A program made the position numbers and the translations under genes. Of a stretch of 64,000 bases of DNA, positions 31,071 through 33,668 are shown piece after piece. The stretch spans positions 248,001 through 312,000 of the forward strand of contig NZ_NFUU01000002.1 of the NCBI RefSeq assembly GCF_002127265.1, in the 5' to 3' direction. The notes under the pieces were generated by a model. That model had not been told where the DNA came from, did not search any database, and worked only from the letters and a program-made list of their open reading frames with translations. The DNA comes from Hydrogenophaga sp. IBVHS1. Its GTDB lineage: Bacteria; Pseudomonadota; Gammaproteobacteria; Burkholderiales; Burkholderiaceae_C. Each line of letters opens with the position of its first letter. Position 1 is the stretch's first letter.

Positions 31071-31416
31071 GAAGCGCACCAGGCCGTCGCTGGCACGATA
31101 CCCCGAAAGGGAGTGCTGGAGGAACGTCCGGACTGCACAGGACAGCGTAGGAGGTAACACCTCTCCACCGACAAGCTCTGAGAGTTCGCTCGATGGGCCC
31201 TAAGGTGAGGATCAGAGCAACAGAGACGAGCCGATTCAGTTCGGGTGAAACGGGCAATCTCTACGCGCAGCAATACCAAATAGGCCAGCGTTGACGTGGT
31301 TCCGCGGAGCTGGCGGGTAGGTAGCACCGAGCCGGGGGGTGACCCCCGGCCCAGATGAATGGCGGTCACATCCGGAGCAATCCGGATGCACAGAATCCGG
31401 CGTAACGGTGCGCTTC
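31071..31416 (+). ncRNA. rnpB: RNase P RNA (catalytic RNA of tRNA 5' maturation), class A
   Basis: The ends pair to form helix P1 (GAAGCGCACC with GGTGCGCTTC), setting the limits at about 346 bases. Conserved core segments occur in the bacterial order: GGAGGAACGTCCGGACTGCA near the start, the CAACAGAGA box, CAATACCAAATAGG, GGCCCAGATGAATG and CACAGAATCCGGC near the end. It combines with the protein RnpA to cleave the 5' leader from pre-tRNAs. A TTTTT run just after P1 (31421–31425) probably ends transcription. Confidence 0.95.
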
Positions 31417-31432
31417 ACACTTTTTCTGCCAC

Positions 31433-32521
31433 TCAGGGCTGCCGATCGCGCACGTACACGATCGCCTCCGCCCGCGTGCGCACGCCCAGCTTGTCGAAGA
31501 TGCTCGACACCTGGTTGCGCACCGTCTTCTCGCTCTTGTTCAACCGCTGCGCGATGGCGGGGTTGTCCAGGCCAAGGGCCACGAGGTGCAAGACCTCGCG
31601 CTCGGCCAGCGTCAGCGCCGCACCGCCGGCGTCTTCGGCCGCATCGACCTTCGCGGTGCCCAGAAAGGCACGCAGCTCCGCCAGGAAAGTGGACCACGCC
31701 GGCTCGGTGTCCAGCAGCACGTGGTTGTCGCTGTCCAGCGGCACGAAGCGAGCCCCCGGGATCAGCGCGGCCAGCCGCAGCCCTTCGTCGAACGGCACGC
31801 GCGCATCGCCACGCGCATGCAGCACCAGCGTGGGCACGCGCAACTGGCGCGCCAGGTCGGTCACGTCGACGCGGTGGAACGCATCGAGCGTGCGGGCAGC
31901 GTTCTCGGGGCTGGCGGTCAGGCGCTCCAGTTCGTTCCACCACTGGTGCTGCGCTGGCGTGCCGCCTGGGATGAACTGGTTGGTGAACACCTGGCGGAAG
32001 GCCGCGTTGTCGCGCCCCCAGCCCAGGCGAATCAGGTTGACCAGGGTCTCGGCTTCCAGCCGCTCGGCGTCGCTGGTGGCGCGTTGCAGTGCGCCGCGCG
32101 CGTAGGCGCCGGGCAGGACGAGGTGCGACACTTTGTCGGGGTGGCGCACCGCGTAGGCGATCGCCACTGCGCCGCCTTGCGACATGCCGATCAGCGGGAA
32201 GCGGCGCAGGCCCAGGCTGTCGACCACGGCTTCGAGGTCGCCGACCCAGGCGTCGAGCGAGAAGTCGGCCACCGAGCTGTCGGACAGGCCGCAGCCGCGC
32301 TGGTCGTAGCGGATGTAGTAGTGGTCGCGGGCGAGTTCGGCCAGCCAGGGTCGCCAGACCGGGCTGTGCAGGTCGTGCTCGACATGGCTCAGCCAGTGCG
32401 CGGCACGCAGCAGCGGCGGGCCAGAGCCGATCGACGCGATCGCGATGCGCGTGCCATCGGTCGCGGTGCAGAAGCGCAGGCTCTGACGCGGGTTCGAGGG
32501 CGGACGCTGAACAGCGGGCAT
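31433..32521 (-). CDS. Alpha/beta-hydrolase–LuxR fusion transcriptional regulator
   Basis: 362 residues. Residues ~15–290 are an alpha/beta-hydrolase with a complete candidate triad: Ser114 (GMSQGG), Asp239 (HARGDARVPF) and His267 (DSDNHVLLD). Residues ~300–352 are a LuxR/GerE helix-turn-helix (LTLAEREVLHLVALGLDNPA, EKTVRNQVSSIFDKLG). No membrane or response-regulator receiver domain. It is probably a one-component regulator that binds or hydrolyses a small molecule through the hydrolase domain. I chose the start at 32521; a longer frame overlaps the divergent di-iron gene, its likely target. Its stop is 16 bases from the rnpB end. Confidence 0.85.
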   Translation of the reverse strand: MPAVQRPPSNPRQSLRFCTATDGTRIAIASIGSGPPLLRAAHWLSHVEHDLHSPVWRPWLAELARDHYYIRYDQRGCGLSDSSVADFSLDAWVGDLEAVVDSLGLRRFPLIGMSQGGAVAIAYAVRHPDKVSHLVLPGAYARGALQRATSDAERLEAETLVNLIRLGWGRDNAAFRQVFTNQFIPGGTPAQHQWWNELERLTASPENAARTLDAFHRVDVTDLARQLRVPTLVLHARGDARVPFDEGLRLAALIPGARFVPLDSDNHVLLDTEPAWSTFLAELRAFLGTAKVDAAEDAGGAALTLAEREVLHLVALGLDNPAIAQRLNKSEKTVRNQVSSIFDKLGVRTRAEAIVYVRDRQP

Positions 32522-32582
32522 GCGCGATTGTCTCGCGCCTGGGTCGTCCGTCCCATGCCATGGAGCCTGCGATCTCCCCCGC

Positions 32583-32607
32583 TGAGGGATGCGGGACATC
32601 CGCCTCA
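32583..32607. promoter_or_regulatory. Imperfect palindrome between the hydrolase–LuxR regulator and the di-iron gene
   Basis: Outer arms TGAGG/CCTCA and inner arms GGATG/CATCC around a 5-base centre, with a small bulge, in the 157-base divergent gap. Candidate binding site for the LuxR domain of the adjacent regulator. Pairing is imperfect, so confidence is limited. Confidence 0.4.
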
Positions 32608-32678
32608 TGCGCCGGCGCTCGCACCGGTGAATCCTTGGCTCACGTCGACACGACGGATCCCACCCGAAAGGAAACACC

Positions 32679-33668
32679 ATGGAAACCCAAGCCATTCCCC
32701 TGGACATCTCTCGCTACGCGAGGACCATCGAAGTCTCGAAACGCATCCGCTGGGACATCGATCACGATGTGATCCGCGGCCGCAGCTTCGATCTGGACCA
32801 CACCTTCCTGCCCGACGGGCTGTCGCTGGCCGACGAATTGGCCTTCCTGAGCCCGGCCGAGCACCGCTTCCTGAGTCAGGTGCAGGGCCGCACCTACGCC
32901 AACATGTTCGGCGTGGTCGAGCGCTTCATCGGCGCGAAGATGCTGGAGGTGAGCCGCGACCACTGGCTTGGCGACCAGACCGCGCTGGAAGCCCTGGTGC
33001 GCTTCACCGACGAGGAGCTGAAACACCAGGAGCTGTTCCGCCGCATCGAGTTGCTGGTGGGCGCCGACATGCCGGCGGGCTACCGCTTCGACGTGTCAGC
33101 CAACGATGTGGCCGCCTTCGTGCTGGGCAAGTGCACCTGGGCCGTGCTGGCGCTGACCTGCCACATCGAGCTGTTCTCGCAGGCGCACTACCGCGCCAGC
33201 ATCGACGCCGCGCCAGACCTGTCGCCGCTCTTCAAGGATGTGTTCCTGTTCCACTGGAAGGAGGAATCGCAGCACGCGATCATCGACGAGCTGGAATGGC
33301 AACGTGAAGACGCCAGACTGGCGTCCGAAGCAGAACGCGATGCGGCGGTGGACGACCTGATCGCACTGGTCGGCGGCGTCGACGGCATCCTGCAGGCGCA
33401 GGCCCAGGCCGATGCGACGTACTTTTTGACAACCATCGGAATGGCCGGACACAGCGAGCGCGCCGAGCAGATGAACGCCACGGTGCTGAAGGCCTACCGC
33501 TGGCAGTACATCGTTTCCGGCACCCTGGAGCCGCGCTTCCAGACACTGCTGGGCAGACTGGTGAGTTCAGCGCAGATGGCACGCATCCAGGCCGCGCTGG
33601 CGCCGCTGAGCTACGCGGTACCGGCGCGCGCGGAGGCGATGAACGCGATGAGAGCCACGGTGCACTGA
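32679..33668 (+). CDS. Ferritin-like di-iron protein (AurF/oxygenase-like)
   Basis: 329 residues, almost certainly all-helical. Two E-E-x-x-H motifs are present at residues 112–116 (EELKH) and 195–199 (EESQH), with further glutamates at 81 (VVERF) and 164 (HIELF) at the spacing expected for the four-helix di-iron fold. This suggests an oxygen-activating enzyme (N-oxygenase, desaturase or hydroxylase) rather than a storage ferritin. A good AAGGA Shine-Dalgarno precedes the ATG. It is transcribed divergently from a hydrolase–LuxR regulator, which suggests ligand-induced expression. The substrate is unknown. Confidence 0.7.
   Translation: METQAIPLDISRYARTIEVSKRIRWDIDHDVIRGRSFDLDHTFLPDGLSLADELAFLSPAEHRFLSQVQGRTYANMFGVVERFIGAKMLEVSRDHWLGDQTALEALVRFTDEELKHQELFRRIELLVGADMPAGYRFDVSANDVAAFVLGKCTWAVLALTCHIELFSQAHYRASIDAAPDLSPLFKDVFLFHWKEESQHAIIDELEWQREDARLASEAERDAAVDDLIALVGGVDGILQAQAQADATYFLTTIGMAGHSERAEQMNATVLKAYRWQYIVSGTLEPRFQTLLGRLVSSAQMARIQAALAPLSYAVPARAEAMNAMRATVH

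Follow-up and report, generated by a model that had tools for sequence, protein, structure and literature searches.

A 64,000-nt stretch of the genome of Hydrogenophaga sp. IBVHS1, a soil and water bacterium, hereafter called the window, carries a gene for an alpha/beta-hydrolase–LuxR fusion protein that lies divergent from a gene for a ferritin-like di-iron protein, with an intergenic gap of 157 bp. On balance, we favor an interpretation in which the fusion protein is a one-component regulator that uses its hydrolase domain as a small-molecule receptor and directly controls an AurF-like oxygenase encoded by the neighboring gene. Sequence analysis and comparison establish the two genes, the catalytic triad of the hydrolase domain, an AurF-type pattern of iron ligands and the corresponding fold, the linkage of the two genes across genomes, and a conserved pair of sites between them; from these observations we infer that the regulator binds the pair and acts on the di-iron gene. 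A first-pass annotation of this DNA, made from the letters alone, had already singled out the divergent arrangement, and the coordinates and Pfam domains of the two genes confirm it. The features considered here are the following, with positions numbered along the window.

31433–32521, minus strand: alpha/beta-hydrolase–LuxR one-component regulator, 362 amino acids (open reading frame, Pfam, AlphaFold)
31700–32365, minus strand: hydrolase domain and putative sensor, Abhydrolase_1, residues 53–274, triad S114/D239/H267 (Pfam)
31454–31618, minus strand: GerE/LuxR DNA-binding domain, residues 302–356 (Pfam)
32540–32555, no strand: putative operator site A, TGGGTCGTCCGTCCCA (footprinting, pair statistics)
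32592–32607, no strand: putative operator site B, CGGGACATCCGCCTCA (footprinting, pair statistics)
32679–33668, plus strand: AurF-like ferritin-like di-iron protein, 329 amino acids (open reading frame, AlphaFold, fold match)
33012–33026, plus strand: first EExxH motif (E112, E113, H116; 80 of 80 rows)
33252–33275, plus strand: H192-x-x-E195-E196-x-x-H199 motif, with a third His as typical of AurF (80 of 80 rows)

Architecture of the hydrolase–LuxR regulator

The regulator start codon was set at position 32521, the point where alignments with its relatives begin. Pfam assigns Abhydrolase_1 at 73.7 bits against a cut-off of 25.8 and GerE/LuxR at 49.1 bits against one of 23.5, so that the protein is a member of the GerE family by the curated threshold. 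The triad Ser114/Asp239/His267, already named in the first-pass annotation, is conserved in the alignment of relatives: Ser114 is found in 44 of 45 rows, the remaining row having a gap, and Asp239 and His267 are each found in all 45. With an Abhydrolase domain and a complete Ser-Asp-His triad in its sequence, the hydrolase part of the regulator is apparently a catalytically intact enzyme. The AlphaFold model of the regulator has a mean predicted local distance difference test (pLDDT) score of 90.0, with a poorly defined linker at residues 290–300.

By both sequence and fold, the closest structures to the hydrolase part are arylesterase/haloperoxidase-type hydrolases and not D14/KAI2, although D14/KAI2-type structures also occur among the sequence and fold matches of the regulator. 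The NCBIfam LipJ model scores 70.8 bits on this part, far under its cut-off of 800 bits. Two further identities were considered and rejected. The 3-oxoadipate enol-lactonase PcaD (TIGR02427) scores 111 bits against an equivalog cut-off of 255.85, and for a quorum-sensing LuxR protein the expected input is missing: the 12 Pfam matches at E ≤ 0.1 include no autoinducer-binding domain, and the N-terminus is Abhydrolase_1.

LuxR-type proteins are usually activators, and the window regulator shares with the LuxR/GerE one-component regulators a C-terminal GerE domain and palindromic sites, the latter being putative here. It differs from them in its N-terminal domain, which is an alpha/beta hydrolase, with no acyl-homoserine-lactone-binding domain in the Pfam scan. 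Alpha/beta hydrolases are known as receptors, both D14/KAI2 in plants and RsbQ in Bacillus having such a role. Like these proteins and the hydrolase–adenylate cyclase LipJ, the regulator appears to represent a hydrolase with an intact triad that is used in, or fused to, signaling; unlike them, it carries its output, a DNA-binding domain, within the same polypeptide.

Linkage of the regulator and di-iron genes

The di-iron protein had been described as an orphan, a designation that does not hold, as a genome scan identified 333 stretches encoding relatives, and a second copy resides in its own genome. The 80-locus counts given throughout refer to the best 80 of these 333, in named genomes, and the 80-row di-iron alignment consists of the window and 79 loci, L121 being left out because no gene was called there. 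Co-occurrence of the two genes elsewhere had been set beforehand as the test of the proposed pairing, and 46 of the 80 loci proved to have a hydrolase regulator domain no more than 2.6 kb from the di-iron gene, a count that is no unbiased frequency since these are the closest relatives. Among the 46 linked loci, 29 have the genes divergent, 16 have the regulator in tandem upstream, and 1 has it downstream, with regulator identities ranging from 46 to 94%. By comparison of these loci, the association has outlasted changes in gene order. The linkage label changes only 7 times on the 80-row tree, versus 25.6 times in shuffles, and the 80 loci are therefore not independent draws.

Across 250 genomes of the bacterial family, the di-iron gene is present in 20 (26 places) and the regulator, at E ≤ 1e-60, in 27 (33 matches representing about 32 genes, one of which is in two pieces). 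Adjacency in these genomes was checked with a 1.5-kb flank, and 20 places were also checked with flanks of up to 6 kb.

The second di-iron copy in the window genome (G000:C2:76973-77878; L042 5968-6912) is 66% identical to that of the window, and stands last in a row formed by genes for a hybrid histidine kinase, an alpha/beta hydrolase, and a patatin-like phospholipase. Homologues of the kinase, the hydrolase, and the patatin occur in L043, L046, and L040, and the patatin also occurs in L038 and L102.

Paired palindromic sites

The first-pass annotation had mentioned a bulged palindrome between the two genes, for which it gave no coordinates; we take this to be site A, which is indeed present as one member of a conserved site pair. 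The palindromes, each 16 bp long, were detected by aligning and footprinting 17 intergenic or upstream regions. Within site A, 6 of 8 arm positions pair, as judged by eye, and site B is weaker. The starts of the two sites are 52 bp apart, with site A located 18 bp from the regulator start codon and site B 71 bp from the di-iron start codon. A scan of positions 32400–32800 for sigma-70-type promoters found none.

When the pair was defined by the consensus YGGGNC-N4-GNCYCR, allowing no more than one mismatch over both sites and a position no more than 450 bp upstream of the di-iron gene, it was found in 35 of the 46 regulator-linked loci versus 1 of the 34 others; the first figure is inflated because the consensus was derived from loci in which it was then counted, whereas the contrasts with other genes are not, the contrasts being drawn with loci and upstream regions that did not contribute to the consensus. 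As controls, 15,800 first-order Markov sequences yielded 16 with a pair, and the regions upstream of other genes in the linked loci, 320 in all, yielded 1. At two mismatches, the counts rise to 41 of 46 linked versus 2 of 34 unlinked loci. The spacings of 40 pairs cluster at 52–55 bp (31 pairs), 42–43 bp (4 pairs), and 33–34 bp (2 pairs), steps of approximately one helical turn that suggest binding on one face of the DNA. In tandem loci, the pair again lies upstream of the di-iron gene, i.e., between the regulator and the di-iron gene.

The pair was also sought in 21 loci of regulator relatives that have no adjoining di-iron gene, three of these relatives matching in the hydrolase part only. 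Five of the loci contain it (L266, L267, L269, L270, and L271), in each case immediately adjoining the regulator, and the 21 loci yielded no further pair; the pair thus goes with the regulator. On our reading of the sequence, it faces a gene for a DMT-type transporter in L266 and one for a methyltransferase in L267. In L270 (G114, same genus), no di-iron gene was found, and a hydrolase–LuxR regulator of 58% identity lies beside a perfect pair. Within the 4.43-Mb genome that contains the window, the pair pattern, which fixes T at the first base, occurs once, versus 0 matches for the reversed control. We regard it as highly probable that the regulator directly controls the di-iron gene through this pair.

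Some loci depart from the simple arrangement. L067 (Hydrogenophaga intermedia S1) has a di-iron gene and a perfect pair, with no regulator within the fetched flanks; a 58% identical regulator is encoded elsewhere in this genome, and such copies also occur beside other genes. In the Cupriavidus-type loci L080, L083, L084, and L140, two pairs about 0.2 kb apart occupy a regulator–di-iron gap of about 0.9–1.3 kb, and the pair nearer the di-iron gene is weak (2 mismatches) in L083 and L084.

Relationship of the di-iron protein to AurF and CmlI

Comparison of a predicted structure with AurF/CmlI-like enzymes had been proposed as a check, and these enzymes are the best fold match of the AlphaFold model of the di-iron protein (mean pLDDT 92.6, predicted template modeling score 0.91). 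AurF and CmlI, which are arylamine N-oxygenases of a family characterized by six-electron N-oxidation of an arylamine, fill the six best rows of the structural comparison, with Z scores of 18.7–19.3 and root-mean-square deviations of 3.7–4.3 over 260–281 aligned residues, at a sequence identity of 11–13% in the structural alignment. They are followed by ribonucleotide reductase R2 at Z 16.3 and R2lox at 15.7; all these Z scores are to be read with the warning of the comparison tool that helical bundles can reach a Z of about 13 through their common arrangement alone.

The two EExxH motifs noticed in the first-pass annotation are present and invariant in all 80 rows of the alignment. Each of seven positions corresponding to AurF-type ligands, E81, E113, H116, E164, H192, E196, and H199, is likewise invariant in these rows, which gives a predicted site of three histidines and four carboxylates with AurF spacing; E112 and E195 are equally conserved. 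The AurF site is described as having three histidines and four carboxylates, with D135, H139, E196, D226, and H230 named (PMC12101540), so that the window protein resembles AurF/CmlI (PF11583) in the number and spacing of these residues as well as in fold. The AurF residues E136, H223, and E227 were deduced from the motifs. We take AurF E101 to be an iron ligand as well.

Differences from AurF are found in the second shell, where its Asp135 and Asp226 correspond to Glu112 and Glu195 of the window protein, and in the genetic setting, as the genes directly around the window di-iron gene do not resemble a biosynthetic cluster. The di-iron halogenases CylC and NocO share the AurF-related fold and a histidine-rich site, and have Gln at the AurF Asp135 position (QExxH; PMC12101540). 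An identity as a di-iron halogenase was rejected, since this diagnostic Gln is lacking and the position is Glu (E112) in 80 of 80 rows.

Among 54 members of the family alignment, 40 match PF11583 at E ≤ 1 (best 6.3e-8), and weaker Pfam matches are seen to EncFtn-like proteins (12 of 54, best E 0.0056) and COQ7 (6 of 54, best E 0.0046). A search of PDB sequences with the 54-member profile produced no match up to E 10, and one with the di-iron protein as a single sequence produced one chance-like match; because these searches gave nothing usable, the link to AurF is drawn from the weak Pfam matches, the fold, and the ligand pattern. Judged by its model and residues, the di-iron protein looks as if it is built like an AurF-type di-iron oxygenase, and it probably works like one. 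We infer O2 chemistry for it and consider it likely to be an O2-activating oxygenase.

Relatives of the di-iron protein occur in Hydrogenophaga, Variovorax, Cupriavidus, Paraburkholderia, and elsewhere, and the rows nearest to the window protein on the tree are from Hydrogenophaga and a Betaproteobacteria metagenome-assembled genome. When 120 genomes of the bacterial family were searched with PF11583, matches were obtained in 62, mostly partial, and exceeded the cut-off in 4. A plasmid collection contributed 10 di-iron matches, six of which were inspected; three of these stretches carry no annotation, and the remaining three have the enzyme labeled as a hypothetical protein.

Exchange of the DNA-binding domain

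In another class of the same phylum, six di-iron genes adjoin the same hydrolase domain (50–56% identity) joined to a different DNA-binding part. The fusion partner of the hydrolase domain is an OmpR-type winged helix in L219, L226, L228, and L229, all over the Pfam cut-off, and a BTAD/SARP-type N-terminus in two loci, L227 (26.4 bits against a cut-off of 22.1) and L155 (19.9 bits, under the cut-off). Five of the six di-iron genes form a divergent branch, that of L155 being 31% identical to the window's and the other four being 56–61% identical to that of L155; the L219 gene is of the closer type (64%). Among 22 loci of more distant di-iron relatives, 6 have the hydrolase domain and 10 have OsmC.

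The input domain and the neighboring gene thus persist while the output domain changes, and no other observation points as strongly to the hydrolase as the sensor; we consider it likely that this domain serves to detect a ligand. As the winged-helix and SARP fusions were sampled beside di-iron genes only, the tree of hydrolase domains, several branches of which are weak or long, cannot separate ancestral linkage from gain. In L230, L231, L232, L034, L037, and L039, large SARP- or TPR-containing regulators near the di-iron gene take the place of the hydrolase fusion, and those of L230, L231, and L232 contain a stretch resembling the N-terminus of the L155 fusion (39–46%).

A proposed one-component switch

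In the mechanism that we favor, the N-terminal alpha/beta hydrolase, with its triad intact, would be the receptor of a one-component switch, and the C-terminal LuxR domain would bind two palindromes presented on the same DNA face about five helical turns apart. From this intergenic pair, the regulator would act on the divergent di-iron gene and, given the position of site A, would probably also control its own gene. The AurF/CmlI-like enzyme, in turn, would activate O2 at its three-histidine, four-carboxylate site and oxidize a small molecule. Our working guess is that the receptor binds, and perhaps slowly cleaves, an acyl ester, thioester, or lactone that is the substrate of the enzyme or a close precursor; that the ligand is such a compound, identical with or upstream of the enzyme substrate, is a tentative suggestion about which we are somewhat doubtful. 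Gene context, in the form of patatin and a separate hydrolase near the second copy, OsmC in the more distant relatives, and peroxiredoxin–glutaredoxin in Cupriavidus loci, leans towards acyl or lipid-derived, possibly peroxidic chemistry, without deciding the matter.

Several observations pull in the opposite direction, in addition to the derivation of the consensus from the counted loci. With regard to linkage, 34 of the 80 loci have the di-iron gene without a hydrolase regulator, and instead have an OmpR-type response regulator (17), an AraC-type (7) or SARP-type (2) regulator, or none that was found (8). Only 5 of the approximately 32 regulator genes in the 250-genome sample adjoin a di-iron gene, as do only 6 of the 30 hydrolase-domain matches in the other class. 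With regard to the sites, no pair is present in 11 of the 46 linked loci at one mismatch or in 5 at two mismatches, although L104, one of these five, has a perfect pair just beyond the 450-bp limit. Spacings outside the three clusters are seen in 3 of the 40 pairs (36, 57, and 59 bp), and 16 of the 21 regulator loci without a di-iron neighbor have no pair. In the 250 genomes, the pair pattern has 16 matches versus 12 for the reversed control, so that its matches away from the locus are mostly background; five of these 16 matches, representing 4 places of which one is matched on both strands, are beside a family regulator. With regard to the enzyme, Foldseek returned no match at E ≤ 0.001, with CmlI and AurF ranked first and a best E of 1.4e-3 (CmlI). 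The window protein scores 16.2 bits against the PF11583 cut-off of 29.6 (E 0.0061) and is not filed as a member of that family because the curated cut-off is not reached. Alignment of the family by hhalign with two AurF-family proteins gave one reported match, at a probability of 2.1%, in which both motifs are aligned in register.

The pairing of the hydrolase regulator and the di-iron gene is not exclusive, since members of the regulator family also occur next to other genes and the enzyme is often accompanied by different regulators. For the former reason, we rejected the notion that the regulator exists solely for this enzyme. The first-pass description of a self-contained module may accordingly hold for the window locus, rather than for the two families at large.

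Alternative interpretations

The alternative that survives best, although we consider it unlikely, is a stress or redox role for the di-iron protein in place of oxygenation of a dedicated substrate; the protein would then have organic or lipid hydroperoxides as its targets, or would oxidize iron in a ferritin-like manner, and the various regulators would report membrane or oxidative damage. OsmC belongs to a family of organic-hydroperoxide reductases, and its presence would fit this idea: it occurs in 10 of the 22 distant loci, 9 of which have it as the immediate same-strand neighbor of the di-iron gene, and both Novosphingobium plasmids carry it as well; near the di-iron gene in the 80 closest loci, however, it was found in none at the thresholds used. 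The weak EncFtn-like and COQ7 matches of some relatives point the same way but are surpassed by the AurF matches, both in the number of members and in significance, and the fold is closer to AurF/CmlI than to ribonucleotide reductase R2 or R2lox, with the third histidine invariant. Further support comes from the patatin beside the second copy in the window genome and, in Cupriavidus loci, from a peroxiredoxin–glutaredoxin and a pyridine-nucleotide disulfide oxidoreductase some genes away.

Less likely again is that the hydrolase acts as a trigger enzyme, i.e., a pathway enzyme, joined by chance to a DNA-binding domain of its own, that cleaves an ester or thioester to feed the di-iron enzyme and that regulates through its own occupancy by substrate. 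The invariant triad is consistent with such a role, as are the separate hydrolases or patatin whose genes immediately precede the di-iron gene where the fused regulator is missing: a hydrolase precedes the di-iron gene in L217 and L031, and the second copy follows the kinase, hydrolase, and patatin. The occurrence of the hydrolase domain with three different DNA-binding domains is better explained by a sensor, and family regulators also lie beside unrelated genes. This proposal is nevertheless compatible with the receptor mechanism that we favor, as the two are not mutually exclusive. Finally, that the genes are neighbors without a regulatory relation, the site pair serving only for autoregulation of the regulator, is very improbable, for while site A is close to the regulator start codon and 5 of 21 regulators lacking a di-iron neighbor have the pair, in tandem loci the pair lies downstream of the regulator and before the di-iron gene, and linkage is both frequent (46 of 80) and seldom changed on the tree.

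Relationship to known systems

Taken singly, the components of the locus are all of familiar types; no description of their combination, of the paired sites, or of the domain swapping appeared among the literature matches listed. In particular, an exact-word search of open-license PMC papers returned, among the matches listed and as far as their titles and abstract beginnings extend, no description of a hydrolase–LuxR regulator paired with an AurF-like enzyme. If the receptor mechanism is correct, it would offer an experimentally tractable example of an enzyme fold recruited as a bacterial transcriptional receptor, with a defined DNA-site pair usable as a ready reporter. It would also link a branch of AurF-like di-iron enzymes to a signal, and the inducer would point to the enzyme substrate.

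A bolder extension, which we put forward as speculation and think rather unlikely in its entirety, is that these proteins represent a widespread regulator class in which a catalytically competent hydrolase receptor is mounted on at least three DNA-binding scaffolds (LuxR, OmpR-type winged helix, and SARP/BTAD), with ligand cleavage as the signal or its reset. A new branch of AurF-like di-iron oxygenases, recurrently under the control of these regulators, would oxidize the same acyl compound, and OsmC would handle a peroxidic product in some lineages. Were this so, the hydrolase regulators would be a bacterial one-chain counterpart of D14/KAI2 perception.

Genomic setting

An OsmC gene immediately adjoins the di-iron gene, in the same orientation, in L137, L138, L139, L155, L220, L221, L222, L227, L231, L233, and L234, and the carriers of this neighbor are Novosphingobium plasmids, a Nostoc plasmid, and distant genomes. 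The flanks of the window locus are ordinary, comprising genes for a MATE transporter, a DUF2239 protein, and a NUDIX/metallo-beta-lactamase protein. An RNase P class A RNA gene (window positions 31071–31420) directly adjoins the 3′ end of the regulator gene.

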